Shown here: positions 28,724 to 39,534 of the stretch, piece by piece
Numbering within the stretch: the stretch's first letter is position 1
Layout: every line of letters starts with the position of its first letter
Assembly: GCA_001281695.1 (NCBI GenBank)
Contig: LJIE01000001.1
Coordinates: 3,309,521 to 3,373,520, forward strand
Direction of reading: 5' to 3'
Origin: a bacterium 336/3
Lineage (GTDB): Bacteria > Bacteroidota > Bacteroidia > Cytophagales > Thermonemataceae
DNA length: 64,000 nt
The notes under the pieces: generated by a model
The model's database searches: none
The model's input: only the letters and a program-made list of their open reading frames with translations
Told to the model about the DNA's origin: nothing
Position numbers and translations under genes: made by a program

Positions 28724-30010
28724 TTAAACCCATTTTGAAACTTTCAAATTCTGATTCTGAGCCCATAGTGTTACCAAGTGTTTCTCTTTGGGTTGCATGC
28801 ATCTGTTGTACTTGCCTCTTGCTTGTACAATTGTTTTTGAGTTTAAATCGATTTCCAATGTAATTAAAGTTTCTATCATTCCAAACTCATCAGATTTTAA
28901 TGTAAAAATAGCACATTGTCCTTTGTGGCAACGAGTGTCGTAGCTGGATACACAATGTTTTTGCTTTGCACCTTCTGCTTTAAGTTCATTGGTAGAAAGT
29001 AATTCTTGAATTTCATACATTTTAGTTTTTATACCTGTACCTTCTTCCCAAATGAATCCCTCAATACCACAAGTTTTCCAAACATAATTTCCACCTCTGT
29101 TGAAACGACGATTAAGGGTTTGATGCCACTCTAGTGTCTGACGCAACACTGAATTAATGGTTCTACCTTTCATAGAATATGCATTGTTCTGTATGTATTG
29201 TTCTCTGATGTAATCAACCATTTCTTCTATTTTTTCCATATCAAACATACCTGCTTTCACAAAAAACTCAATCACCTCACCCCAAAAACGCTCATTTACA
29301 AAGTTATTTCTACCCAAATACGAACCATTGATATACCAAGCCAAATAATCATCTCCACCCAAACCTATTACTTGTGCATAACGCAAAGCCTCATGAATGT
29401 TTAGATAACTGGGTGCTTGCATAAATGCATGAGCCATTTTTTTAGTCATGTTAAAAGGCAACAATGAAAGTTTACGAACAGAATTTCCTTGAGCCAAATC
29501 GATGTACCATTGCATATAATTTGCTTTCTCTGTCAGCCAAGCTGAATTCAAGAAGGCAGGAACAGGATATTCTGCAAAAAGATGTTTCAATAAATCTGTC
29601 CACTGTTTGGTTATATTATGGCTTTTTCTCTCCCACGTTTCTATTTCTCTGATAAAATAATTCGATTTTAAAGCTATTTTCTTTAAGGAAGCTAAGTATT
29701 CATAGTTTTGGAGTAAGTCAAAACATCTCTTTTTAGCCAATATTTCAAGCAATGCCTTATAGGACTTTAAATGTGGCAAATATATTCTTTGACTTAGTTC
29801 TTCAAAATCTGCTTTTATTTTATTAAAAACCTCAGGATAAGTATAATGAAAACTTTTTTTTGAAAATATAAGCTCTACATTTTTCAAAAACACCTTCGAT
29901 AAATCTTTAGGCGTTTTAAGTATTTCCTGATATTTTTGTTGTTTTTGAATTTTAGTTTTTTCAATAGCCTCTAATTGTATGTATAAAGGTACTTTTTTCT
30001 GGTTTCCCAT
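28724..30010 (-). CDS. PcfJ-domain protein
   Basis: 428 residues from ATG at 30010 (in-frame TTG upstream is less likely). A long helical N-terminal part is followed by the PcfJ region: LSTNELKAEGAKQKHCVSSYDTRC, a CxxG-type loop, ITLEIDL, and IVQARGKYNRCM. PcfJ-like proteins are known from conjugative elements and phages; their function is unsettled. It is preceded by a copy of the ttgtactttt motif found at several points of the RNA island, tying it to that island. Confidence 0.75.
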   Translation of the reverse strand: MGNQKKVPLYIQLEAIEKTKIQKQQKYQEILKTPKDLSKVFLKNVELIFSKKSFHYTYPEVFNKIKADFEELSQRIYLPHLKSYKALLEILAKKRCFDLLQNYEYLASLKKIALKSNYFIREIETWERKSHNITKQWTDLLKHLFAEYPVPAFLNSAWLTEKANYMQWYIDLAQGNSVRKLSLLPFNMTKKMAHAFMQAPSYLNIHEALRYAQVIGLGGDDYLAWYINGSYLGRNNFVNERFWGEVIEFFVKAGMFDMEKIEEMVDYIREQYIQNNAYSMKGRTINSVLRQTLEWHQTLNRRFNRGGNYVWKTCGIEGFIWEEGTGIKTKMYEIQELLSTNELKAEGAKQKHCVSSYDTRCHKGQCAIFTLKSDEFGMIETLITLEIDLNSKTIVQARGKYNRCMQPKEKHLVTLWAQNQNLKVSKWV

Positions 30011-30067
30011 ATCCCAATAAATTAATCTTTCTAAATTTTTAAGCAATACAATCACACCCAACTAAAA

Positions 30068-30079
30068 TTGTACTTTTTT
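30068..30079. promoter_or_regulatory. TTGTACTTT motif before the PcfJ-like gene
   Basis: ttgtactttttt; on the minus strand aaaaaagtacaa followed by TTTTAG..GGG, nearly as at 37807-37819 before the tRNA array. Confidence 0.4.
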
Positions 30080-30132
30080 CAGTTAGCTCATTAAACAATT
30101 CTCTTGATTTTTTGCAGGGGAAAGGCAAAAGA

Positions 30133-30165
30133 AAAGCCCGAAAACTTTGGCAATTTTCGGGCTTA
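30133..30165 (-). terminator. Rho-independent terminator
   Basis: Stem agcccgaaaa / ttttcgggct with a 9-base loop; on the minus strand the stem is followed by TTTTCTTTT. It ends the transcript carrying the small ORF at 30186. Confidence 0.85.
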
Positions 30166-30185
30166 GGATATTTTAGAAAGGGAAA

Positions 30186-30314
30186 CTACCAGAAAGTAGC
30201 CTCATCTATATTCCAAAGACCGAAAGGTATGCCAAGAATCCCCACAGACCATAAGTCTACACATTTGTGAGCTATGCTGTTAGATTTTTGATACATTTTA
30301 CTTTCTAATCTCAT
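30186..30314 (-). CDS. Small ORF (42 aa) with its own promoter and terminator
   Basis: ATG to TAG, 42 residues, containing IAHKCVDLWSVGILGIPFGLW. It starts downstream of a promoter-like stretch shared almost exactly with the small ORF at 37930 and ends just before a strong terminator. Both peptides share PFGL. Coding status is unproven; it could also be a leader or small RNA. Confidence 0.4.
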   Translation of the reverse strand: MRLESKMYQKSNSIAHKCVDLWSVGILGIPFGLWNIDEATFW

Positions 30315-30359
30315 TGGTTTTGTGTTTAAAATTTGATGATGCAAATATGGAAGCATTTT

Positions 30360-30375
30360 TTGTACTTTCCAAATA
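30360..30375 (-). promoter_or_regulatory. Shared promoter element of the small ORF (copy 1)
   Basis: ttgtactttccaaata (plus strand) is identical in all 16 bases to 38118-38133. On the minus strand it reads TATTTGGAAAGTACAA and is followed at the same distance by TTTG in both copies, as expected for a -33/-7 pair. Confidence 0.5.
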
Positions 30376-30401
30376 TTTTTAGAAAAATTTATAAAAAAAT
30401 A

Positions 30402-30630
30402 AAAGAGGCAACAAGCAAGAAAACTATCGCTCTTACCATCTGCTTGTGGCAGATTAGGCAGTGAGCTGGTAATTCGACATCTTTGTTTAAAGACTTACAA
30501 GGAGGCATTTAAGCTTTCAACCCCATTTTACCATATCGGAATCAACCCGATTTCACTAGTTCGGTCACCCGAATTACGCTACCTTAGGATCGTTATAGTT
30601 ACGAAGTAGGCTTTCTTTACGGCACTCTTT
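30402..30630 (-). ncRNA. PE7: permuted mimic of 23S rRNA domain IV (H68-H71)
   Basis: 229 bases between the RNA ligase gene and the small ORF. The outer clamp is AAAGAG / CTCTTT, then a bulged T and GC/GC, then the second helix AAGAAAGC / GTTTTCTT. Right after the conserved TACTT comes CGTAACTATAACG and then ATCCTAAGGTAGCG. Over the 25 bases from TAAC to AGCG I recall one difference from E. coli 23S (about 1911-1935). An H71-like hairpin TCGGGTTGATTCCGA follows. The far end reads GGTAAGAGCGAT; joined to CGTAAC it restores a full H69 stem, GATCG-loop-CGATC, and continues 23S upstream (GGTAAACGGCGGCCG in E. coli). So the order is permuted: 3' piece first. Confidence 0.85.
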
Positions 30631-30667
30631 ATGTTTTAAATACTAATATTATCTCTGGACTATTATT

Positions 30668-31660
30668 CTATTCATATTTCAATAAAAACTCTGGGTTGAT
30701 GGCTTTGAAAGACACTCTTCCAACGTTTCTTTCATGGCGTTCTTCAAGAGGACGTATTACGATGCCTTCAGCCCAAACTTTGTCATTTAGTGTTGAACGC
30801 ATTTTAGATTTTTCGATTAATGCATGAATATCATTGCTCAAAGCATAATCTGCTTCTAAAATAGGTACACTTGGCAAATCCAAATTCTTCAAGATGCTTT
30901 CAAACTCATTAAAACTTACATAAACAGATTTGTCAATATCATAAATACTAAAAAATCTTGCTGTTTGTCCTTTTAGGGCATATTTATTGCCTTGTACTCC
31001 CTCACCTATGAGTTCTCCTTGTAAAGCAATATTCCTGCCAAAACTTTTTAGTTTTTCTTCTACATTCAACGCTTTTGCCACTGCCCAAAAGGTATTTTCA
31101 TCATCTGGCTCCAGTTCCATATTACGGCTACAAACACTAAATGCTTCATCTCTGAGGTAATATGTTACAGAAGAACCATCTAATTTTTCGGTAACAAAGC
31201 ATTTTTCACCTTGATATTTGTCTAATACTCTTTGCAGTACTTGTACTCTTGTTTCGTCAGTTTTAGGAATAAAAGAAGGAAATGTACTTTTCATGACACC
31301 AGCCAGCATTGCAGGAATAGGTGGTTCGTATTTGATAACTCCCAGAATATCTGTTACATCCAAGTCTTCTTCAATGGGTGTGCCTTCAGGCAACACACTC
31401 AAAGGAAAGCAAATACCTTGTGAAATTTGTCCACGCAAACGAATGGTTCTGATACGCATACCACGAGGTTTTAAAAACTCGTATTCAGGTTTATCTGGCA
31501 AAATACTGTCTATTTCACAATAAACACACAATTCACCCTCTTTAAATTCATCTTTTTTGACGACCAGTTCCCAACCCAGTACAGTTGCTCTCATAATAGC
31601 ATCTGCATCAGGAATAGGGTCTAAGGCTTTTATTTTTTGAATAGAAGCAAGTTTTCTCAT
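30668..31660 (-). CDS. RNA ligase, Rnl5/DraRnl (DRB0094) type
   Basis: 330 residues. An N-terminal OB-like module (RKLASIQKIKALDPIPDADAI) precedes a nucleotidyltransferase domain with catalytic Lys159 in TEKLDGSS (motif I), FFSIYDID (III), EGIVIRP (IV) and VSFKAIN (V). Deinococcus DraRnl seals 3'-OH/5'-phosphate nicks in RNA duplexes and RNA on DNA. It is the last protein gene before PE7 and follows the primase-like, ATP-grasp and TROVE genes on the same strand. In this setting it is the natural candidate to join the ends of the permuted RNAs, or to repair cleaved tRNA (inference). Confidence 0.9.
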   Translation of the reverse strand: MRKLASIQKIKALDPIPDADAIMRATVLGWELVVKKDEFKEGELCVYCEIDSILPDKPEYEFLKPRGMRIRTIRLRGQISQGICFPLSVLPEGTPIEEDLDVTDILGVIKYEPPIPAMLAGVMKSTFPSFIPKTDETRVQVLQRVLDKYQGEKCFVTEKLDGSSVTYYLRDEAFSVCSRNMELEPDDENTFWAVAKALNVEEKLKSFGRNIALQGELIGEGVQGNKYALKGQTARFFSIYDIDKSVYVSFNEFESILKNLDLPSVPILEADYALSNDIHALIEKSKMRSTLNDKVWAEGIVIRPLEERHERNVGRVSFKAINPEFLLKYE

Positions 31661-31679
31661 TGTTTTTTTATTTTTTGAA

Positions 31680-31734
31680 ACAAGAAATTAGATACAAGAA
31701 GCAAGATATTTTTTCTAATGTCTAATCTCTTATA
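31680..31734. repeat. Heptad-type intergenic repeat
   Basis: acaagaa, attagat, acaagaa, gcaagat, then tctaatg, tctaatc, tcttata in 7-base register, between the RNA ligase and primase-like genes. Confidence 0.5.
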
Positions 31735-31735
31735 T

Positions 31736-32407
31736 TTATTTGATAAAATGAGGTGTAAAACCACCTTGACTGCACCCCACAACGGGTATCAAATTATCTC
31801 CTTTTACATCACAACCTGTAATAGCTGTGAGTTTTGGATACCATGTTTTTTCGTATTGTTTTTCAATTTTAGAGAGTTCTACAAGTAAATGAAAACCTCC
31901 TCTTGTCTGCAATACATTCAAGCATTCTGAATTGATGTGTTTTTTTACTTCTGTAAGGGTTTCCCCAATATCCACTCCATCAAAATCCAAATCGAAGTAT
32001 ATTTTTCGTTTACAACACTGCTGAATTTGTGAAAGTACCTCCTGATGTGGATTGTAACCAGTATATTTCTTGGTAATCAGTTCAGCAAATTTCACCAAGG
32101 ATTTTTTAGTTGCTTCCTCCAAATCTCTTGGATTGGGCGTAATGTACAAAGCCAACGCTTCTTGAGGTATCGAGTTTCCTTTCTGTTTATACGAATCTAT
32201 CTCACACTCTAATTGCTTAATTTTATCAAAAAGATATTCTTTGTTGGAAGTAAAACGTTTGAGTTGAGCTTTATCAGCTCCTACCCCTTCGGCATATTTG
32301 CTTCGAGCCAACAAAGACACATAATAGGTTTCCTGAGGTTTCAGTTCTGGAAGCCAATCTATAAAATTCTGAAGCAGTTTTTTGTCTGTTATAATTTTGT
32401 AGTTCAT
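31736..32407 (-). CDS. Small primase-polymerase-like (AEP) protein
   Basis: 223 residues. The C-terminal half shows the archaeo-eukaryotic primase signature order: acidic motif in IYFDLDFDGVD, then GGFHLLVEL (the s-x-H motif), then a third acidic motif at ITGCDVKGDNLIPVVG. The N-terminal half is helical and unassigned. No helicase or zinc module is present. It may act as a nucleotidyltransferase on RNA ends here rather than a replicative primase (inference from neighbours). Confidence 0.65.
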   Translation of the reverse strand: MNYKIITDKKLLQNFIDWLPELKPQETYYVSLLARSKYAEGVGADKAQLKRFTSNKEYLFDKIKQLECEIDSYKQKGNSIPQEALALYITPNPRDLEEATKKSLVKFAELITKKYTGYNPHQEVLSQIQQCCKRKIYFDLDFDGVDIGETLTEVKKHINSECLNVLQTRGGFHLLVELSKIEKQYEKTWYPKLTAITGCDVKGDNLIPVVGCSQGGFTPHFIK

Positions 32408-32420
32408 TTGTATCTTTATT

Positions 32421-33230
32421 TTAGCTATTTTTCTGATTTCTGCACCAATTTACAACATAATTGATATATGCTTCTCGTACAAATGAAAAAACTGTTACAT
32501 TAGGTATATGATTGACCTCCAGCAGATACTTCTGATTATCAGGTGTTACCATATAATCTATTCCTACTATTTTTAAATTGAAATATTGAGCCAAATTTTT
32601 AGCATCCTCCAGTAAATCCGCATCTATGGGCATTTCTGATACATTTTGGTGATGAATAGATTTTAACCAATCATCGCCTGTAAGCTGAATTTGCCAAGCC
32701 TGTTCTCCTACCAAAACAATCCGAACAGCTTCTCCTTGTATAAATGGTTCATAAAGTGTTATTTCATTGGGTGTTTGCCAGTTTCCTTCAAATTTAGTTT
32801 TGTTTTCTCCGCAATGCCAGTTGCTCCATTTTGCTACTGTAGGGCGTTCTGCATGCCATTCTTGAGCTTCTAAAGACATTCCTCTTGGTAGAATACCAAA
32901 TTTTGTTGCTTTTAAAGCTCTCACAAGCCCTGAATGTCTGAGCCTGCAATCCATCATGCCTGTAGCATTGGGCAAACATTCTCCACCCCAAAGAGCTAAT
33001 AATGTGATAAAATCGAAGTCATCATCAAATATTCCATGATAAATTACTCTATCTACTTTCAAAAACTTATCAGGATGCGTTTTGCTTTCCACCCACAAAA
33101 TCCCCTCTACGAGCTTAATTTTAGGTAAATATTCGTAAATAACAGTTAAACAATCTATTTTTTCTAAAATTTCTGTAGTTTCAGGTGGTTCTAAACCTAC
33201 CATCAAAACTCTTTTTTTATCTGATAACAT
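32421..33230 (-). CDS. ATP-grasp domain protein (RimK-like)
   Basis: 269 residues. The ATP-grasp layout is seen in the C-terminal half: EPFIQGEAVRIVLVG, WQIQLTGDDW, and the Mg-binding IVGIDYMV..YLLEVNHIPNVTVF. The N-terminal part is an alpha/beta pre-ATP-grasp domain. Such enzymes join carboxylates to amines. It lies 13 bases upstream of the primase-like gene and after TROVE, so it probably belongs to the island operon; the substrate is unknown. Confidence 0.75.
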   Translation of the reverse strand: MLSDKKRVLMVGLEPPETTEILEKIDCLTVIYEYLPKIKLVEGILWVESKTHPDKFLKVDRVIYHGIFDDDFDFITLLALWGGECLPNATGMMDCRLRHSGLVRALKATKFGILPRGMSLEAQEWHAERPTVAKWSNWHCGENKTKFEGNWQTPNEITLYEPFIQGEAVRIVLVGEQAWQIQLTGDDWLKSIHHQNVSEMPIDADLLEDAKNLAQYFNLKIVGIDYMVTPDNQKYLLEVNHIPNVTVFSFVREAYINYVVNWCRNQKNS

Positions 33231-33247
33231 ATATTTTAGCCTTTAAG

Positions 33248-33278
33248 AGAGTTCTCTATAAAGTTTACAGAGAACTCT
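33248..33278. promoter_or_regulatory. Intercistronic hairpin between TROVE and the ATP-grasp gene
   Basis: Perfect 10-bp stem agagttctct / agagaactct with an 11-base loop and no T run on the minus strand, so more likely a processing or stability element than a terminator. Confidence 0.5.
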
Positions 33279-33284
33279 TACATT

Positions 33285-34802
33285 TTATAACTCTATATTT
33301 TCTATTTTAGAAATGGCTGTTTCGCCATTTTCAATAGCTTCCAATACTTCAAAAACTTTGTCAGACCAGCCTGCAATCAAGAATGTGTCTTTATTTACCA
33401 CATTCAAAGGCATTTGTCCATAGCCAGCCAAGTCAAAAAGATACAATTGAGCATTGGGAGCTATTTTTTTGTACTCTTTCCACAATGCAGGAATAGTTTC
33501 TCCAGAGAAATTGCTGTTCCACATTTGACAATCAGTAAACATCATTACTTTATCCATCACCAATTTTCTAGCAATCAAATCTTTGATAACCAAATAGCCA
33601 TTGGTAGAATATCCTACTTCTCCTTCACGTTTACGGAATTCCATCACATTTGCCAAGATATTCTTTTGAGGCACATTGATGGCTTTCCAAGTATCACCAA
33701 ACATTCCAGTAATTACACTTTTACAAGCATTTTGGAAAAGCATCGCAAGTACCAAACCTATATCATAATTTTGTACTTTGCTATTTTTGGAAATAGGTGA
33801 TTGCATAGAACCAGAAACATCGCAAGCAAGCAATACTTTTGTATCTTTATCAAAACCTTTGATATTTGAAGCACTCACTTGAACAGCATTTTCCAACGCA
33901 TTCAAGATAGTAGTTGTATGTACAGACACCACTCCTTGCAATTCTCTATATGCTGAAAGGAATCGGAAAGGCAATTGTTTTGAATTTTGTACTGCTTTTT
34001 CGTTAGAAAGATAATTTGTCACTTTTTCGATATGAGCTTGACTTACTTGTGCCTCCAAAATATTACGTAGGTTACGAAGTGTTGCCATATAACCCACTTT
34101 TCCACTATCAATCAATTCTTCCCATTTAGCCTTAAAAGCAGCATCTCTATCTTCTTTTTTATCAAAACCTTTTTGTCCAAGTACTGAAAGTTCTACTTCC
34201 CAAGTGTAAGGTGTTTCGAGTTCATCTTTTACAATTTTATCGAAAATAGCTTGTTGTGCTTCATCTTTTGCTTTAGGGTGTACCAAAAACAGGGCATCAC
34301 GCAGTTTGATTTCAGTAACTCTGTTGTATTTTGCAAATTGATACTCATCAAAACTGTTAAAAGCATTTGCCACACCTTTTTGTACTTGTTTGGAAAGTTT
34401 TCCCAGTTTCTTCATGCCATCACGAGCATTTGCCATTTGGTAGTAAGCCAAAATCTCTGTGATTTCATCAGCACGTCCTATGATTTGGCTAATCATTTTG
34501 CTTACAAGCTGATCGCCAGCGTGTACTTTGGCAAGCTCCACAGCCAATACCAAAGGTACAGAACGCAAATTCATTTGTTTGCGAGCATACACAGCTAATT
34601 TTGCCACGAATAAAGGGTCATTTTTAGCTATCAACTCTTTAATTCGAGCTACTTTCGCATCATTTTTTTCATAAAATTGGTCTGAAAGAGATGATGTTAC
34701 TACTGCAGAATACAATTCCATAGCAGGCGTTAGTTTATAAGCTTTTTCGCCTTCGTGATTGGTAATTGTGTTTGTTCCTTGTGTGTTTTTATTGAATTTC
34801 AT
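33285..34802 (-). CDS. TROVE-domain protein (bacterial Ro60/Rsr)
   Basis: 505 residues. Helical HEAT-like TROVE ring (about 1-310; DPLFVAKLAVYARKQMNLRSVPLVL is typical), then a VWA-like domain with MIDAS residues in CDVSGSM (about 328) and MMFTDCQMW. Ro60/Rsr rings bind misfolded RNA ends in the central hole and Y RNAs on the outer rim; in Deinococcus Rsr works in RNA decay and stress survival with a tRNA-like Y RNA. Here it lies directly after a tRNA-His-like gene and PE6, so the permuted tRNA-like units are candidate Y-type ligands (inference). Confidence 0.92.
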   Translation of the reverse strand: MKFNKNTQGTNTITNHEGEKAYKLTPAMELYSAVVTSSLSDQFYEKNDAKVARIKELIAKNDPLFVAKLAVYARKQMNLRSVPLVLAVELAKVHAGDQLVSKMISQIIGRADEITEILAYYQMANARDGMKKLGKLSKQVQKGVANAFNSFDEYQFAKYNRVTEIKLRDALFLVHPKAKDEAQQAIFDKIVKDELETPYTWEVELSVLGQKGFDKKEDRDAAFKAKWEELIDSGKVGYMATLRNLRNILEAQVSQAHIEKVTNYLSNEKAVQNSKQLPFRFLSAYRELQGVVSVHTTTILNALENAVQVSASNIKGFDKDTKVLLACDVSGSMQSPISKNSKVQNYDIGLVLAMLFQNACKSVITGMFGDTWKAINVPQKNILANVMEFRKREGEVGYSTNGYLVIKDLIARKLVMDKVMMFTDCQMWNSNFSGETIPALWKEYKKIAPNAQLYLFDLAGYGQMPLNVVNKDTFLIAGWSDKVFEVLEAIENGETAISKIENIEL

Positions 34803-34863
34803 TTTTTTAAAGTTAAAAGGTTATACAAACGACACTTTTAAATAATTTTTTAAAATTATTTTG

Positions 34864-34936
34864 GGGGAAGTAAGGGAATCGAACCCATGTCTCTTGAACC
34901 ACAATCAAGCGTCCTAACCGTTGGACCAACAACCCC
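34864..34936 (-). tRNA. tRNA-His (GTG)-like, imperfect
   Basis: Cloverleaf with D-stem GTCC/GGAC, anticodon stem CTTGA/TCAAG around TTGTGGT, T-loop TTCGATT, and an extra 5' G opposite C73 as in tRNA-His. The acceptor stem has two T-T mismatches (GGGTTGT/ACTTCCC) and the T-stem one. No exact CCA is encoded. It may be functional only poorly, or serve as a mimic. Confidence 0.7.
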
Positions 34937-34940
34937 ATAA

Positions 34941-35073
34941 AAGCTGGTAACTGGCAAAAAGTGACTATACAGATGTCCTATCCACTTAGACGACACTTCG
35001 TTGGAAGTGATGGGATTTGAACCCACATTTCCTGGCGTGACTGGCGAAGTAACACTTTTTTACGACACAGCTT
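34941..35073 (-). ncRNA. PE6: permuted tRNA-like unit
   Basis: Clamp: AAGCTG / CAGCTT, bulged T, GT/AC, then AAAAAGTG / CACTTTTT. Inside, a T-arm (GTGGG-TTCAAAT-CCCAT) and acceptor 3' strand CACTTCC come first, a linker of one base after the discriminator, then acceptor 5' strand CGAAGTG, and D-arm GTCTAAGTGGATAGGAC. Joining the outer ends gives anticodon stem CTGGC/GCCAG with loop CAGTCAC (GTC in anticodon position, but A at position 33). Identity is therefore uncertain. It lies between the AlkB-like gene and the tRNA-His-like gene. Confidence 0.85.
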
Positions 35074-35079
35074 ATATTT

Positions 35080-35649
35080 TTAATGAATCACGTTTCTAAA
35101 TGTAATATTGATTCTCGCTTTTTTTTCGTTTTCAGGAGGTACTCGGTGTAAATGTGTATGTTGCAGAGTTCCTTGCATTACGATTACATCTCCTTTTTCT
35201 ACTGATAATTTTAGTGGATTTCCCATTCCATTTTTGGCTTTAAACCAAAACTCTCTTGTTTCTCCAAATGAAATTGAAACGATTGTAGGATTTTTACCCA
35301 CACATGCATCATCATCAGAATGCCAGTTTACTCTATCTTTCCCATCTCTATATAATTGCAAAACAGCGGCATTAAACTTTTCTTGACCTAAAATTTCAGC
35401 GTCTTTTTTGAGTTCAAGGATCACATCTGTCCAAGGCTCAGGCTCAAAAACCATTCCTGAATAATTATAAGACCTCTCTCCATAACTGGCTGTGAGCCTT
35501 GGTAAATGTATAATACTTCCATCTGCATTTTGATAGGTTTTATCTAACCATTTGATTTGGTTAGATAATTTTCGAAATATCCTATCACAATACACATCAT
35601 CATAAAAGGCTGAAAATACGACTAAACGTCCATTCAAATAAGTTTTCAT
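35080..35649 (-). CDS. AlkB-like 2-oxoglutarate/Fe(II) dioxygenase
   Basis: About 189 residues from ATG at 35649, which follows the ATP-grasp stop by two bases (an ATG at 35667 is also open). Double-stranded beta-helix with iron ligands in WHSDDD (H-x-D) and HTHLHR, and the 2-oxoglutarate clamp RINITFR, as in AlkB. AlkB enzymes remove alkyl groups from bases of DNA and RNA. Placed between permuted tRNA units and next to TROVE and an RNA ligase, an RNA-repair role is plausible (inference). Confidence 0.88.
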   Translation of the reverse strand: MKTYLNGRLVVFSAFYDDVYCDRIFRKLSNQIKWLDKTYQNADGSIIHLPRLTASYGERSYNYSGMVFEPEPWTDVILELKKDAEILGQEKFNAAVLQLYRDGKDRVNWHSDDDACVGKNPTIVSISFGETREFWFKAKNGMGNPLKLSVEKGDVIVMQGTLQHTHLHRVPPENEKKARINITFRNVIH

Positions 35650-35651
35650 AG

Positions 35652-36389
35652 TTATAAATAATAGCATTCATCTATTGTCTTTGTGATTTCTGCCCACCGA
35701 GTTGCCAGTAATTTGGCATAGTCTAAATAAAAAAGTCCATAAGTCCCCAACGAATATCCATCATTTACTTCTACCAAAAGTGTATCACCTTTGTCTGTCA
35801 GTCCAAAATCAATGGCATACGCTTTAGGTGCTGTTGTATAAGCTTTTACGGCTTCTTCAATTACTTTATAATCAAAGTGTAATCGCCAATTACCTTTGTA
35901 CATTCTTGCATCCAATATTTTTCCATACCTTACAAAACATCGCCATTCAGCAAGAAAATTGACAGGTTCAGAACACCAAATTTCAGTATCTTCTAATTGA
36001 TCTCCACAACCAATCAGATCTTTGGTACTTTTTACCAAAACACCTGTAAACTTTTTAGATGCTTTGGCTGGTTTGATAAATACATTCCATTTTTCTGGGT
36101 TATTGGCAATGGTATTCACTGTCGATTTCCAAACTTTTCTACCTAAAAATGCCTCTAATTCCTTTGGATAATTAATTTCTTCTGGAATAACTAACCCCAA
36201 ATTTTTCCAAACAGCTTTTACATCATCAATAGAACCTACTACCACATCTTCAGGAACATTACCAGTTAATTCATTTCCTTTATAAAAATCACAAATTTCA
36301 TAGCCCATAGCCCTGAACCCCTCACCTGCCACATAATAATTGACTGTGGCAGGGTGTCCTTCTTTTACTTTTTGGATATAGACTTTCAT
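35652..36389 (-). CDS. ATP-grasp protein, R2K-like (DUF4343-type)
   Basis: About 245 residues from ATG at 36389. A longer open frame upstream is only the translated tRNA at 36404. Features: FIKPAKASKKFTG (ATP-binding Lys), EWRCFVRYGKI, and KAYAIDFGLTDKGDTLLVEVNDGYSLGTYGL (metal ligands D/E/N). This resembles the R2K group of ATP-grasp proteins, whose substrates are unknown. It is embedded in the tRNA array, and its start context (TATAACTATGAAA) is repeated before the AlkB-like gene. Confidence 0.75.
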   Translation of the reverse strand: MKVYIQKVKEGHPATVNYYVAGEGFRAMGYEICDFYKGNELTGNVPEDVVVGSIDDVKAVWKNLGLVIPEEINYPKELEAFLGRKVWKSTVNTIANNPEKWNVFIKPAKASKKFTGVLVKSTKDLIGCGDQLEDTEIWCSEPVNFLAEWRCFVRYGKILDARMYKGNWRLHFDYKVIEEAVKAYTTAPKAYAIDFGLTDKGDTLLVEVNDGYSLGTYGLFYLDYAKLLATRWAEITKTIDECYYL

Positions 36390-36403
36390 AGTTATAATGT
36401 TTT

Positions 36404-36487
36404 TGGTTGCGGAGGTGGGACTCGAACCCACGAGGCGAATGCAAAGGCTTATGAGACCTTCCAGATACCAACTTCTGACACTCCACA
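36404..36487 (-). tRNA. tRNA with CAT anticodon and long variable region (Met-like)
   Basis: Acceptor TGTGGAG/CTCCGCA, discriminator A and encoded CCA; anticodon stem AAGGT/GCCTT with loop CTCATAA; T-arm GTGGG-TTC-GAGT-CCCAC. The variable region is about 12 bases, unlike normal tRNA-Met, and the D-arm/26 junction is irregular. Likely Met or an aberrant tRNA. It lies 15 bases before the ATP-grasp start codon. Confidence 0.7.
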
Positions 36488-36508
36488 ATCATGTGAATAT
36501 ATATTTTT

Positions 36509-36640
36509 TAACAGGTAACAAGCAAAAAGTGACTGACAACGGGCTTTTACCGTATCTTCCTGCAAGCAGGACGCTTTGTCTCGATTTAAGCTACAGCATT
36601 TCCAGTAGAAACGAAGTAACACTTTTTTACGACACTGTTA
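36509..36640 (-). ncRNA. PE5: clamp unit with rRNA- or tRNA-like interior
   Basis: Clamp TAACAG / CTGTTA, bulged T, GT/AC, then AAAAAGTG / CACTTTTT. The interior has a central linker hairpin TCCTGC-TT-GCAGGA but no TTC-type T-loop. Read in permuted order it gives GGAAGATACGG, AAAAG, CCCGT, then TTTCTACTG and TGTAGCTTAA, which can be lined up with gaps to 23S rRNA near 2054-2095 (AAGACGGAAAGACCCCGTG, TTTACTATAGCTTGA). The mimicry is tentative; a degenerate tRNA is the alternative. Confidence 0.65.
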
Positions 36641-36641
36641 G

Positions 36642-36714
36642 TGCGAAAGACAGGACTCGAACCTATATGGCTAGATTTTCAGTCTAGTGCCTTGACCATC
36701 TCGGCTACTTTCGC
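36642..36714 (-). tRNA. tRNA-Phe (GAA)
   Basis: Acceptor GCGAAAG/CTTTCGC with A73, anticodon stem CTAGA/TCTAG around CTGAAAA, T-arm ATAGG-TTCGAGT-CCTGT. No CCA encoded. D-arm GCCGAGATGGTCAAGGC is more like that of class II tRNAs. Confidence 0.85.
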
Positions 36715-36720
36715 AGAAAT

Positions 36721-36864
36721 TTTGGGGTTATATTCAGAAAAAAACTTTATTTCTCCGTGTCTACCATTTCACCACTGTTTCTACATCGAAACAGGTAGGA
36801 CTCGAACCTACAGGGCTTTAAGCCAGAGTCTTTAGCGAAGTATTTTTTTCTTACGACACCCAAA
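36721..36864 (-). ncRNA. PE4: permuted tRNA-Leu-like unit
   Basis: Clamp TTTGGG / CCCAAA, bulged T, GT/AC, then AGAAAAAAA / TTTTTTTCT, which differs from the usual AAAAAGTG/CACTTTTT yet still pairs. Interior: variable-arm hairpin GGCTTAAAGCC, T-arm GTAGG-TTCGAGT-CCTAC, acceptor 3' strand CTGTTTC, linker ATGTA, acceptor 5' strand GAAACAG, then the Leu-type D-arm GTGAAATGGTAGACAC. Acceptor strands are fully complementary (7 bp). The anticodon arm can be closed as CGGAG/CTCTG, but its anticodon cannot be fixed by eye. Confidence 0.87.
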
Positions 36865-36865
36865 G

Positions 36866-36936
36866 TTACCCTCCGTGGATTCGAACCACGATTCACTCCT
36901 CCAAAGGGAGTTGTCCTGCCGTTAGACGAGAGGGTA
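36866..36936 (-). tRNA. tRNA-Gln (TTG)
   Basis: Acceptor TACCCTC/GAGGGTA with A73, D-stem GTCT/GGAC, anticodon stem ACTCC/GGAGT with loop CTTTGGA, T-arm CGTGG-TTCGAAT-CCACG. No CCA encoded. The same anticodon occurs in the permuted unit PE2. Confidence 0.88.
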
Positions 36937-36951
36937 ATGTATGTATTTTAG

Positions 36952-37022
36952 TCGCCTCAGAACGATTCGAACGCTCATCTCTTGGTTCGTTGCCAAGTAT
37001 CCTTCCTTTGAACGATGAAGCA
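36952..37022 (-). tRNA. tRNA-Arg (ACG) with A33
   Basis: Acceptor TGCTTCA/TGAGGCG with A73, D-arm GTTC/GGAT, anticodon stem CTTGG/CCAAG perfect, loop CAACGAA. Position 33, nearly always T, is A, which should weaken the anticodon turn. T-arm GAGCG-TTCGAAT-CGTTC. No CCA encoded. Confidence 0.78.
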
Positions 37023-37025
37023 ATG

Positions 37026-37159
37026 AAAACAGGCTACAGTCGAGAAATCACTTATAGTTTGCACCACATTTGTTTTCACAAATGGTGGGATTGGTTACCC
37101 ACATAGTCCAGAACCCAATTCTAGCGTGTCGAAGTAAGACTTCTCTACGGCACTGTCTT
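37026..37159 (-). ncRNA. PE3: permuted tRNA-Pro-like unit, opened in the D-loop
   Basis: Clamp AAGACAG / CTGTTTT, bulged T, GC/GC, then GAGAAGTC / GATTTCTC (compensated changes against the other units). Interior in order: GACACG, anticodon arm CTAGA-ATTGGGT-TCTGG (TGG, Pro), T-stem GTGGG/CCCAC with an unusual loop TAACCAAT (no TTC), acceptor 3' strand CATTTGT, discriminator G, linker AAA, acceptor 5' strand ACAAATG (7 bp), then GTGC and part of a D-loop. The break lies in the D-loop, not in the anticodon stem as in PE2. Confidence 0.85.
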
Positions 37160-37162
37160 TAG

Positions 37163-37247
37163 TGGAAGTAGTAGGACTCGAACCTACTCAGACTTAAAGC
37201 CAATGGTTTTACAGACCATCCCAACTCTCCAACTTTGGCGTACTTCC
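37163..37247 (-). tRNA. tRNA-Tyr (GTA)
   Basis: Acceptor GGAAGTA/TACTTCC with A73, anticodon stem ATGGT/ACCAT around CTGTAAA, long variable arm, T-arm GTAGG-TTCGAGT-CCTAC. No CCA encoded. Confidence 0.92.
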
Positions 37248-37254
37248 TTATTTT

Positions 37255-37345
37255 TGGAGGAGAAAGTGGGGCTCGAACCCACGGTACGCTTGTAGCGTAC
37301 TACAGTTTAGCAAACTGCCCCAATCACCAGCTCTGGCATTTCTCC
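37255..37345 (-). tRNA. tRNA-Ser (GCT)
   Basis: Acceptor GGAGAAA/TTTCTCC, anticodon stem GCAGT/ACTGT with loop TTGCTAA, variable arm GTACGC/GCGTAC, T-arm GTGGG-TTCGAGC-CCCAC, CCA encoded. The discriminator is T instead of the usual G of tRNA-Ser. Confidence 0.88.
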
Positions 37346-37354
37346 TAATTTTTC

Positions 37355-37486
37355 GCAGGTAACAAACAAAAAGTGACTATTTACGTTGTTCTACCAATTA
37401 AACTACATCTGCCTTCATGCAAACGATAGGACTCGAACCTATATCAACGGCACCAAAAGCGAAGTAACACTTCTTTACGACACTGC
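37355..37486 (-). ncRNA. PE2: circularly permuted tRNA-Gln (TTG)
   Basis: Clamp GCAG / CTGC, bulged T, GT/AC, then AAGAAGTG / CACTTTTT. The 3' half (37460 to 37418) precedes the 5' half (37412 to 37384) with a 5-base linker. Joining 37384 to 37460 gives a complete 72-nt tRNA: acceptor GCAGATG/CGTTTGC, D-stem GTTT/GAAC with loop AATTGGTA, anticodon stem ACGGC/GCCGT around TTTTGGT, T-arm ATAGG-TTCGAGT-CCTAT, A73. The junction falls between positions 29 and 30. Confidence 0.93.
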
Positions 37487-37489
37487 TAG

Positions 37490-37561
37490 TTCGCCCGGCA
37501 GGATTTGAACCTGCGACTCCCTCATTAAAAGTGAGGTGCTCTACCCCTGAGCTACGAGCGA
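37490..37561 (-). tRNA. tRNA-Lys (TTT)
   Basis: Acceptor TCGCTCG/CGGGCGA with A73, D-stem GCTC/GAGC, anticodon stem CCTCA/TGAGG around CTTTTAA, T-arm GCAGG-TTCAAAT-CCTGC. No CCA encoded. Confidence 0.92.
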
Positions 37562-37567
37562 AAATAC

Positions 37568-37687
37568 AAGAGGCAACATGCAAAAAGTGACTTTACATAC
37601 ACAAGGCATGTTTGTTGGATTTGAACCAACTCAATTGAGATTTTCAGTCTATTTTTTACCGATGTAACACTTTTTTACGGCACTCTT
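37568..37687 (-). ncRNA. PE1: reduced permuted tRNA unit (Phe-like 3' half)
   Basis: Clamp AAGAG / CTCTT, bulged T, GC/GC, then AAAAAGTG / CACTTTTT. Interior: an anticodon loop CTGAAAA (GAA) with a short AGA/TCT stem, T-arm GTTGG-TTCAAAT-CCAAC, acceptor-like AAACATG, then only about 15 bases before the closing helix. The 5' half with a D-arm is missing, so this unit keeps the anticodon and T arms only. Confidence 0.8.
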
Positions 37688-37763
37688 TGGCGGTCAGTAC
37701 GGGAATCGAACCCGTATCGCATGATAGACAGTCAAGCATCATAAGCCATTAGACCAACTGACC
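37688..37763 (-). tRNA. tRNA-Asp (GTC)
   Basis: First gene of the array. Acceptor GGTCAGT/ACTGACC with G73 and encoded CCA, T-arm ACGGG-TTCGATT-CCCGT, anticodon loop CTGTCTA. The anticodon stem CTTGA/TCATG has one T-T mismatch, the D-stem is weak, and position 37 is T rather than a purine. Confidence 0.82.
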
Positions 37764-38293: not shown

Positions 38294-39534
38294 GTGCAAA
38301 AACTTCATAAAAACCTGTGTGTAGCTACTGTTGAAGCCCTTGAAAGTATTTTCAATGAGCAACGATATGCTGATAAAGTAATTGAACAACTCCTTAAGAG
38401 CAATCCTAAATGGGGAGCAAGAGACAGGGCTTTTATTGCAGAAAATACTTATGAGATAGTTCGTTGGTGGAGAAGGTTATTATTTTTGGCTGATGAAAAA
38501 TATGCTGATGGCAGAAAATACCCTACAGTCATTTTTTGGAAAGCGTTGGGTACTTGGCTGGTGCTACAAGATGTTCAAATTCCAGCTTGGGAAGAGTTTA
38601 AGCAAGTAGCAATAGGTAGAATCAAACAGAATTCTAAAAAAGATATGTCTAGAGCTATTAAGGAATCTGTACCTGATTGGCTTGATAGACTTGGCGAACA
38701 AGAATTGAATAAAGAGGGGGATAAAGAACTCAAAGGGATAAAGAACTCAAAGCCTCAAACCAAACAGCTAAAGTAGTAATTAGGACAAATACCCTCAAAA
38801 TCAATAAAACTGATTTATCTAAAGCATTGAAAGAAGCAGGTATTGAAACTGCCAATGTAGGAATTGTAGAAAATGGTCTTGTACTTAAAGAAAGGCAAAA
38901 TATTTTCAAAACTGCTTTGTTTAAGGATGGCTATTTCGAAGTCCAAGATACAGGTTCTCAGAAAATAGGCGAATACTTACAAATTCCTGAAAATTCAAAA
39001 AGTTTAAGAGTAGTAGATGCTTGTGCTGGAGCAGGAGGAAAAACACTTCATCTGGCAGCATTGATGGGCAATAAAGGTAAAATTATTGCTTTGGATACTG
39101 AAGCTTGGAAACTAGAAGAACTTAAAAAACGTAGTCGTAGGGCTGGTGTGAGTATTATAGAAACAAGACTGATAGAGTCTACCAAAACTGTTAAAAGACT
39201 TGAGAATACTGCTGATAGATTGCTTTTAGATGTTCCTTGTAGTGGTTTGGGAGTACTCAGGCGTAACCCAGATGCCAAATGGAAGCTATCAGAAGAGTTT
39301 ATCAATCAAGTCAAGACAACCCAAGCTGAAATTTTAGAAAATTATGCTAAAATTCTAAAAAAAGGTGGTTTGATGGTATATGCTACTTGTAGCCTTCTAC
39401 CTTCTGAAAATGAAAAACAAGTAGAAGCGTTTTTAGAGAAAAACTCTGATTTTACACTTATTTCACAAAACCACTTACGCCCCAGCGAATATGGTTTTGA
39501 TGGATTTTATATGGCATTGATGGAGAGGAAATAA
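38294..39534 (+). pseudogene. rsmB: 16S rRNA m5C967 methyltransferase, split by a 17-bp duplication
   Basis: Two adjacent frames are the N-terminal NusB-like half (GTG start at 38294; VATVEALESIFNEQRYADKVIEQ) and the SAM methyltransferase half (AGAGGKTLHLAALMG, catalytic VPCSGLGVLRRNPDAKW and YATCSLLPSE). The first ends early because gggataaagaactcaaa is present twice in tandem (38718-38734, 38735-38751). Removing one copy restores one frame through NQTAKVVIRTNTLK, the conserved link between the domains. As it stands, no full protein is made; two-copy repeats can revert by slippage. Confidence 0.88.
38718..38751 (+). repeat. 17-bp tandem duplication in rsmB
   Basis: Two exact copies of gggataaagaactcaaa. 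A length of 17 is not a multiple of three, so it shifts the frame. Confidence 0.97.

Follow-up and report, generated by a model that had tools for sequence, protein, structure and literature searches.

An exact 17-bp tandem duplication splits the gene of a putative RsmB paralogue in the Bacteroidota strain 336/3

The split gene and its surroundings

The window analysed here is a 64,000-nucleotide stretch of the genome of strain 336/3 (Bacteroidia, Cytophagales, Thermonemataceae). At 38718-38752 it contains a perfect tandem array, consisting of GGGATAAAGAACTCAAA twice plus one base. The two copies of the 17-bp unit (38718..38734 and 38735..38751, both +) are 100% identical, and the array runs one base further, to 38752. 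As 17 equals 2 modulo 3, the reading frame shifts at the duplication. Two open frames result. ORF1 (38294..38776, +) starts with a GTG at 38294 and encodes 160 residues, comprising an N-terminal domain, assigned from the model of a same-genus homologue, and a frameshifted tail whose end reads TAG TAA (stop at 38774-38776). The second frame (38725..39534, +) encodes ferredoxin-like and SAM methyltransferase domains, with the motifs PCSGLG and ATCS intact. Over 49 bases (38725..38773, +) the two frames overlap and both are open.

When each piece is aligned on its own to 28 relatives (of which 27 are full length and one, L045, runs into N), the two join at the duplication with the relatives' spacing. 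Apart from the duplication, this comparison revealed no break in the gene and no further stop or shift. NQTAKVVIRTNTLK agrees with the conserved sequence that opens the catalytic half. By Pfam and NCBIfam the second piece is a member of the RsmB/RsmF methyltransferase family (catalytic domain PF01189), and ORF1 has no Pfam match and one weak NCBIfam match. In RsmB the N-terminal domain is NusB-like. The original prediction of a single gene cut by an exact 17-bp tandem duplication is thus confirmed. The duplication also looks recent, as had been proposed, in that its two copies are identical, but 17 bases carry little information on age.

Upstream of the broken gene lie nine tRNA genes, a Ro60-like gene and further RNA-related genes. 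By domain match, the Ro60-like protein (33285-34802, -) has TROVE and Ro60 vWA domains. Of the 145 genomes sampled from the order, 37 have a match in a TROVE search, with no other member of the window's family among them, so the gene was possibly acquired. Around it (28724-36392, -) stands a row of PcfJ-like, RNA-ligase, weakly RimK-like, R2K ATP-grasp and 2OG-Fe(II) oxygenase genes, an arrangement that resembles a mobile locus or one for RNA repair. Between the tRNA genes (34940-37692, -) there are six copies of a Y-RNA-like element. The ends of the element, GTGTCGTAAAAAAGTG and AGTCACTTTTTGC, pair as a stem of 12 predicted pairs, eight of which carry compensatory changes in one or more of the copies. 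By eye, some copies have a tRNA-like T arm. Rfam YrlA matches to these elements are weak and fall below the gathering threshold.

How the duplication bears on the gene

Perfect arrays of this kind are rare in the genome. With simple repeats excluded, 1,658,990 non-N bases (of 1,664,000 examined) contain four perfect arrays with a period of at least 12. Those of period 12 and 21 lie within open frames of 171 and 108 codons, respectively, and that of period 13 at a site where no frame exceeds 37 codons; a long frame is cut by the 17-bp array alone. First-order Markov simulations (three of 400 kb) yielded zero, two and one perfect arrays, all of period 10 or 11. The 17-bp array is thus more than chance expectation. 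No general excess of frame-cutting tandem duplications was seen, as no other long frame is cut in the 1.66 Mb.

The same observation bears on whether the strain really has only one copy of the unit and the second is an artefact of sequencing or assembly. The gene is open apart from the duplication and intact in genus mates, and the evidence comes from a single assembly of 13 contigs, the one genome of the species. However, the site lies deep inside a 4.1-Mb contig, and the fact that no other array with a period of at least 12 cuts a long frame argues against a general artefact. To our knowledge, read errors do not usually take the form of an exact 17-bp duplication. We therefore consider an artefact unlikely, though it is the strongest of the alternatives.

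Using the catalytic half as query, we found a close match (E<1e-60; all at 6.5e-62 or better) in 63 of the 145 genomes of the order sample, the strain's own included. The other 62 loci are all unbroken, with open frames of 397-468 codons compared with 269 here. The remaining 82 genomes have no close match at this threshold, and with so many genomes lacking the gene its loss is ordinary. A second intact copy elsewhere was considered and discarded, in line with the original prediction. Our search of the strain's own assembly, in which some stretches read N, returned just the broken gene, an RsmF-like gene (C1:720532-721113, in an open frame of 544 codons), which is the only other family member above cut-off, and one further match of 21.9 bits, which is below it. 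For true RsmB, as distinct from the gene studied here, a passage in PMC7056703 describes E. coli rsmB knock-outs as viable and accumulating 17S precursor, and one in PMC6259748 describes a fitness cost of disrupting the m5C967 gene only in competition.

A perfect head-to-tail repeat in a gene that is otherwise open could also act as a reversible switch, in which slippage gains and loses the duplication often and the population holds on and off forms. There is precedent for this in pneumococcal capsule genes, for which passages of PMC4022640 and PMC4243769 report spontaneous, reversible sequence duplications, credited to Waite and colleagues. Against frequent switching, there are only two copies, the protein alignment of 28 relatives shows no break or inserted repeat at the site, none of the 62 other order-sample loci is broken, and no function is known that switching would reward. 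Such a switch, which would not exclude the reading of the gene as a paralogue set out below, is thus very improbable.

The catalytic half of the broken gene shares 64% identity with its homologues from three genus mates, which share 80-88% among themselves. For the strain's own RsmF-like protein the corresponding values are 54-55% and 71-75%, and against this yardstick the broken gene has therefore not evolved faster. Of 88 near-invariant columns, it departs from three (relatives from 0-7, mean 1.7): at a Trp column beside the duplication, by a change of Ala to Gly, and by a change of Gly to Asn with a three-residue insertion. Faster evolution is thus not seen in identity or column counts, with the Trp column as the exception. 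Here a Gly codon (38717..38719, +), placed by alignment immediately 5' of copy 1, stands at or beside a column in which 46 of 47 relatives have Trp. Its exact column hinges on a one-residue alignment gap, and the letter scored for the strain was read in the shifted frame; the other has a gap at this position. The change could be a second hit, could predate the duplication or could have come with it. Taken together, the three deviations could mean that constraint had relaxed before the duplication.

The two pieces might both be made and work as separate chains of one enzyme, or they might be joined through ribosomal frameshifting; the break falls between domains, the frames overlap over the 49 bases given above, and archaeal relatives can be without the N-terminal domain. 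However, no in-frame slippery heptamer (XXXYYYZ) is present at 38710-38777, leaving the overlap without the site that defines a programmed -1 frameshift, and no homopolymer longer than five occurs at 38700-38780, where the longest is a G5 at 38716. The second frame has no ATG, GTG or TTG upstream of the TTG at 38827, which is already beyond the start of the ferredoxin-like domain, and its first ATG is at 39064. Rescue by frameshifting or by a new start is thus not apparent, and we infer from these features that the locus is unlikely to make a working enzyme. Joined or paired pieces appear highly improbable.

Relation to RsmB, 16S base 967 and the adjoining RNA locus

To which enzyme the gene belongs can be approached through its intact homologues, which we call type B. 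An AlphaFold model of the homologue from the same-genus genome G002 (pLDDT 95.6) has E. coli RsmB (1SQF) as its best structural match (Z 43.3, rmsd 2.4, 386 of 406 aligned). The alignment covers residues 4-405, and the strain's own pieces align to the G002 homologue as two halves. The model thus predicts the N-terminal RNA-binding, ferredoxin-like and SAM domains of RsmB. The archaeal Fmu-like protein 2YXL can likewise be aligned along the full length of the model (Z 39.4), so RsmB is not alone in having this architecture, and a sequence comparison ranks 2YXL above E. coli RsmB as the closest relative of type B with a solved structure. For RsmF structures the alignment begins only at about residue 125 (YebU, Z 34.2). 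The catalytic-cysteine motifs of RsmB, PC(S) and TC(S), are both found: P307 C308 and T357 C358 S359 are invariant in 47 relatives, and the strain's second frame has PCSGLG and ATCS. As modelled, type B would be built like RsmB without passing the tests for being RsmB.

These tests are the NCBIfam equivalog cut-offs (NF011494, 319 bits; TIGR00563, 269 bits) and phylogeny. Six full-length type-B proteins were scored, four of them from genomes of the window's family and two from beyond its class, and all fall below both cut-offs, with 263-279 bits for NF011494 and 227-242 for TIGR00563; the strain's own gene was scored as separate pieces. Their matches to the RsmB models begin only near residue 104-124. 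E. coli RsmB passes both cut-offs, as do nine of nine true-RsmB copies from outside the class (393-470 and 330-386 bits). In trees of 67 and 41 rows, the nine copies group with E. coli RsmB and Bacillota relatives (support 91/81 and 89/73), and type B, together with a sister group, falls on the opposite side (100/97 and 99/97). A tree constrained to unite type B with E. coli RsmB, a grouping chosen after the first tree had been seen, is rejected (AU p 0.00018). E. coli RsmB forms a long branch, whose placement has support of 90/77. RsmF-like proteins are a separate clade (100/99), and type B does not group with E. coli RsmF. Four genomes from outside the class (G333, G306, G362 and G339) carry both kinds, and true RsmB and type B are therefore paralogues. 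Judged by its sequence, the broken gene would be a type-B paralogue of RsmB and not true rsmB, the name under which it had been proposed. An RNA methyltransferase survey (PMC4119055) reports paralogues for RsmF, not for RsmB.

A sample of 218 genomes of the phylum, 55 in the host class and 163 outside, points the same way (counts for type B, Ro60 and h31 were tallied by hand from tables). A match above the RsmB cut-off occurs in 150 genomes, all of them outside the class (150/163, leaving 13 below it, and 0/55 inside). Type B is present in 35 of the 55 in-class genomes, the strain's own included.

The base that RsmB methylates follows this pattern. In E. coli, helix 31 of 16S rRNA reads GATGCAACGCG, a motif present in 5373 of 5426 genomes, with C at 967. 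The numbering of U960 and A975 in a passage of PMC6259748 places this C at 967, and direct counting in a 1541-base gene places it at 966, one short. The motif is visible in 72 of the 218 phylum-sample and 20 of the 145 order-sample genomes. All 29 in-class genomes with a visible motif, from orders other than the window's, read GATGATACGCG and thus have A967; none exceeds the RsmB cut-off, and 20 have type B. All 43 visible outside-class genomes have C967, and 42 of these exceed the cut-off. The forty-third, G358 (L188, L189), has C967 and nothing above the cut-off, together with type B and a sister-group copy. This genome lends itself to asking whether C967 can be a target of type B.

Among the 20 visible genomes of the order, base 967 is A in 17, G in two and C in one. 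The single C967 genome, G118, has no type-B match; its motif stands near a contig end in the outside-class form and may be foreign DNA. G002, the only visible genus mate, combines an intact type-B gene with A967. Among five further genomes searched, the motif is visible in three, those of Epilithonimonas, Maribacter and Christiangramia, which are Bacteroidota with a close homologue and each have A967. The 16S gene of the strain itself is outside the visible set, and base 967 is known here from relatives only. In these genomes base 967 and true RsmB are strongly correlated, though over few independent evolutionary events. True RsmB and C967 of 16S rRNA thus appear to be gone in the host class, and it is very unlikely that loss of m5C967 follows from the broken gene, as had been proposed. 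Our search of the open-access literature found no paper joining RsmB or position 967 with Bacteroidetes, Bacteroidota or Flavobacterium, and none for a combined query on short tandem duplications.

The proposed tie to the adjoining RNA locus did not hold up either. In the three same-genus genomes no tRNA lies near the gene, within the 16, 12 and 5.4 kb read, and G001 and G002 have no Ro60 match. In G004, of the same family, one tRNA-Met lies about 3.5 kb from the type-B gene. The flanking reading frames look different at this locus and at the three same-genus loci. Conserved linkage was thus rejected; since the neighbourhood is not kept in same-genus and same-family genomes, the adjacency seems to be local. 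Across the order sample, type B is present in 11 of 37 genomes with Ro60 and 52 of 108 without (odds ratio 0.46, Fisher p 0.057; p 0.034 with the strain's own locus counted as absent). As this test ignores kinship and the genera are unevenly sampled, we draw no conclusion from it. In the order sample and at the same-genus and same-family loci, we found no evidence of a functional tie between the broken gene and the Ro60/tRNA locus. That the gene is true rsmB, whose loss removes m5C967 in connection with the Ro60/tRNA locus, is scarcely credible: the best family matches are indeed RsmB models and the same-genus homologue is structurally closest to E. coli RsmB, but the cut-offs are missed, the clade is separate, no in-class genome of 55 has a match above the cut-off, C967 is found in none of 29 visible genomes of the class, one of 20 of the order and not in the visible genus mate, and the neighbourhood is not conserved.

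A dispensable paralogue and its known relatives

Taken together, we propose that a recent 17-bp duplication struck a non-essential gene for an RNA cytosine-C5 methyltransferase at the point where its N-terminal domain meets the catalytic half. The break in the sequence is observed, and with it the gene would have lost its activity. The enzyme would be a type-B paralogue of RsmB, with the architecture and catalytic motifs of RsmB in a separate clade. As true RsmB and C967 seem to be gone in the class, type B probably either modifies a different RNA cytosine or serves ribosome assembly in a non-catalytic way. We give this explanation as a whole, a recent duplication and the loss of a dispensable type-B paralogue whose target is not C967, a probability of roughly 0.8. 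The loss is probably recent and neutral, and the duplication could in principle be lost again by replication slippage. Of the original prediction, the single broken gene, the recent-looking duplication and the lack of a second intact gene in the assembly stand; the identity as rsmB, the loss of m5C967 and the link to the RNA island are not supported.

The broken gene itself would be an ordinary loss, and the type-B paralogue is the more interesting by-product. Proteins of this type, quickly read as RsmB, sit in genomes mostly without the base that RsmB methylates. What is called "rsmB" in the host class is likely a paralogue, and calling such proteins m5C967 enzymes would then be wrong. We lean, somewhat beyond even odds, towards a broader picture in which true RsmB and C967 were lost together in the class, a paralogue built like RsmB was kept in many lineages and methylates another RNA cytosine, and the strain is a natural knock-out. 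The strain would then serve as a natural negative control for mapping the substrate of type B.

Three known systems are instructive here. In the pneumococcal capsule genes, as in the broken gene, an exact duplication inside a reading frame breaks the frame. There, however, switching is reported in the passages cited above, whereas here we have one genome and no phenotype. RsmF (YebU, 16S m5C1407) shares the catalytic family PF01189 with type B, but RsmF-like proteins form another clade and the strain has a separate RsmF-like gene. RsmB (Fmu/Sun, 16S m5C967) has the same two-part architecture as type B and the same PCSG and TCS motifs. In contrast to RsmB, type B forms a separate clade, falls below the curated cut-offs and occurs in a class where the target base is absent from nearly every visible genome.
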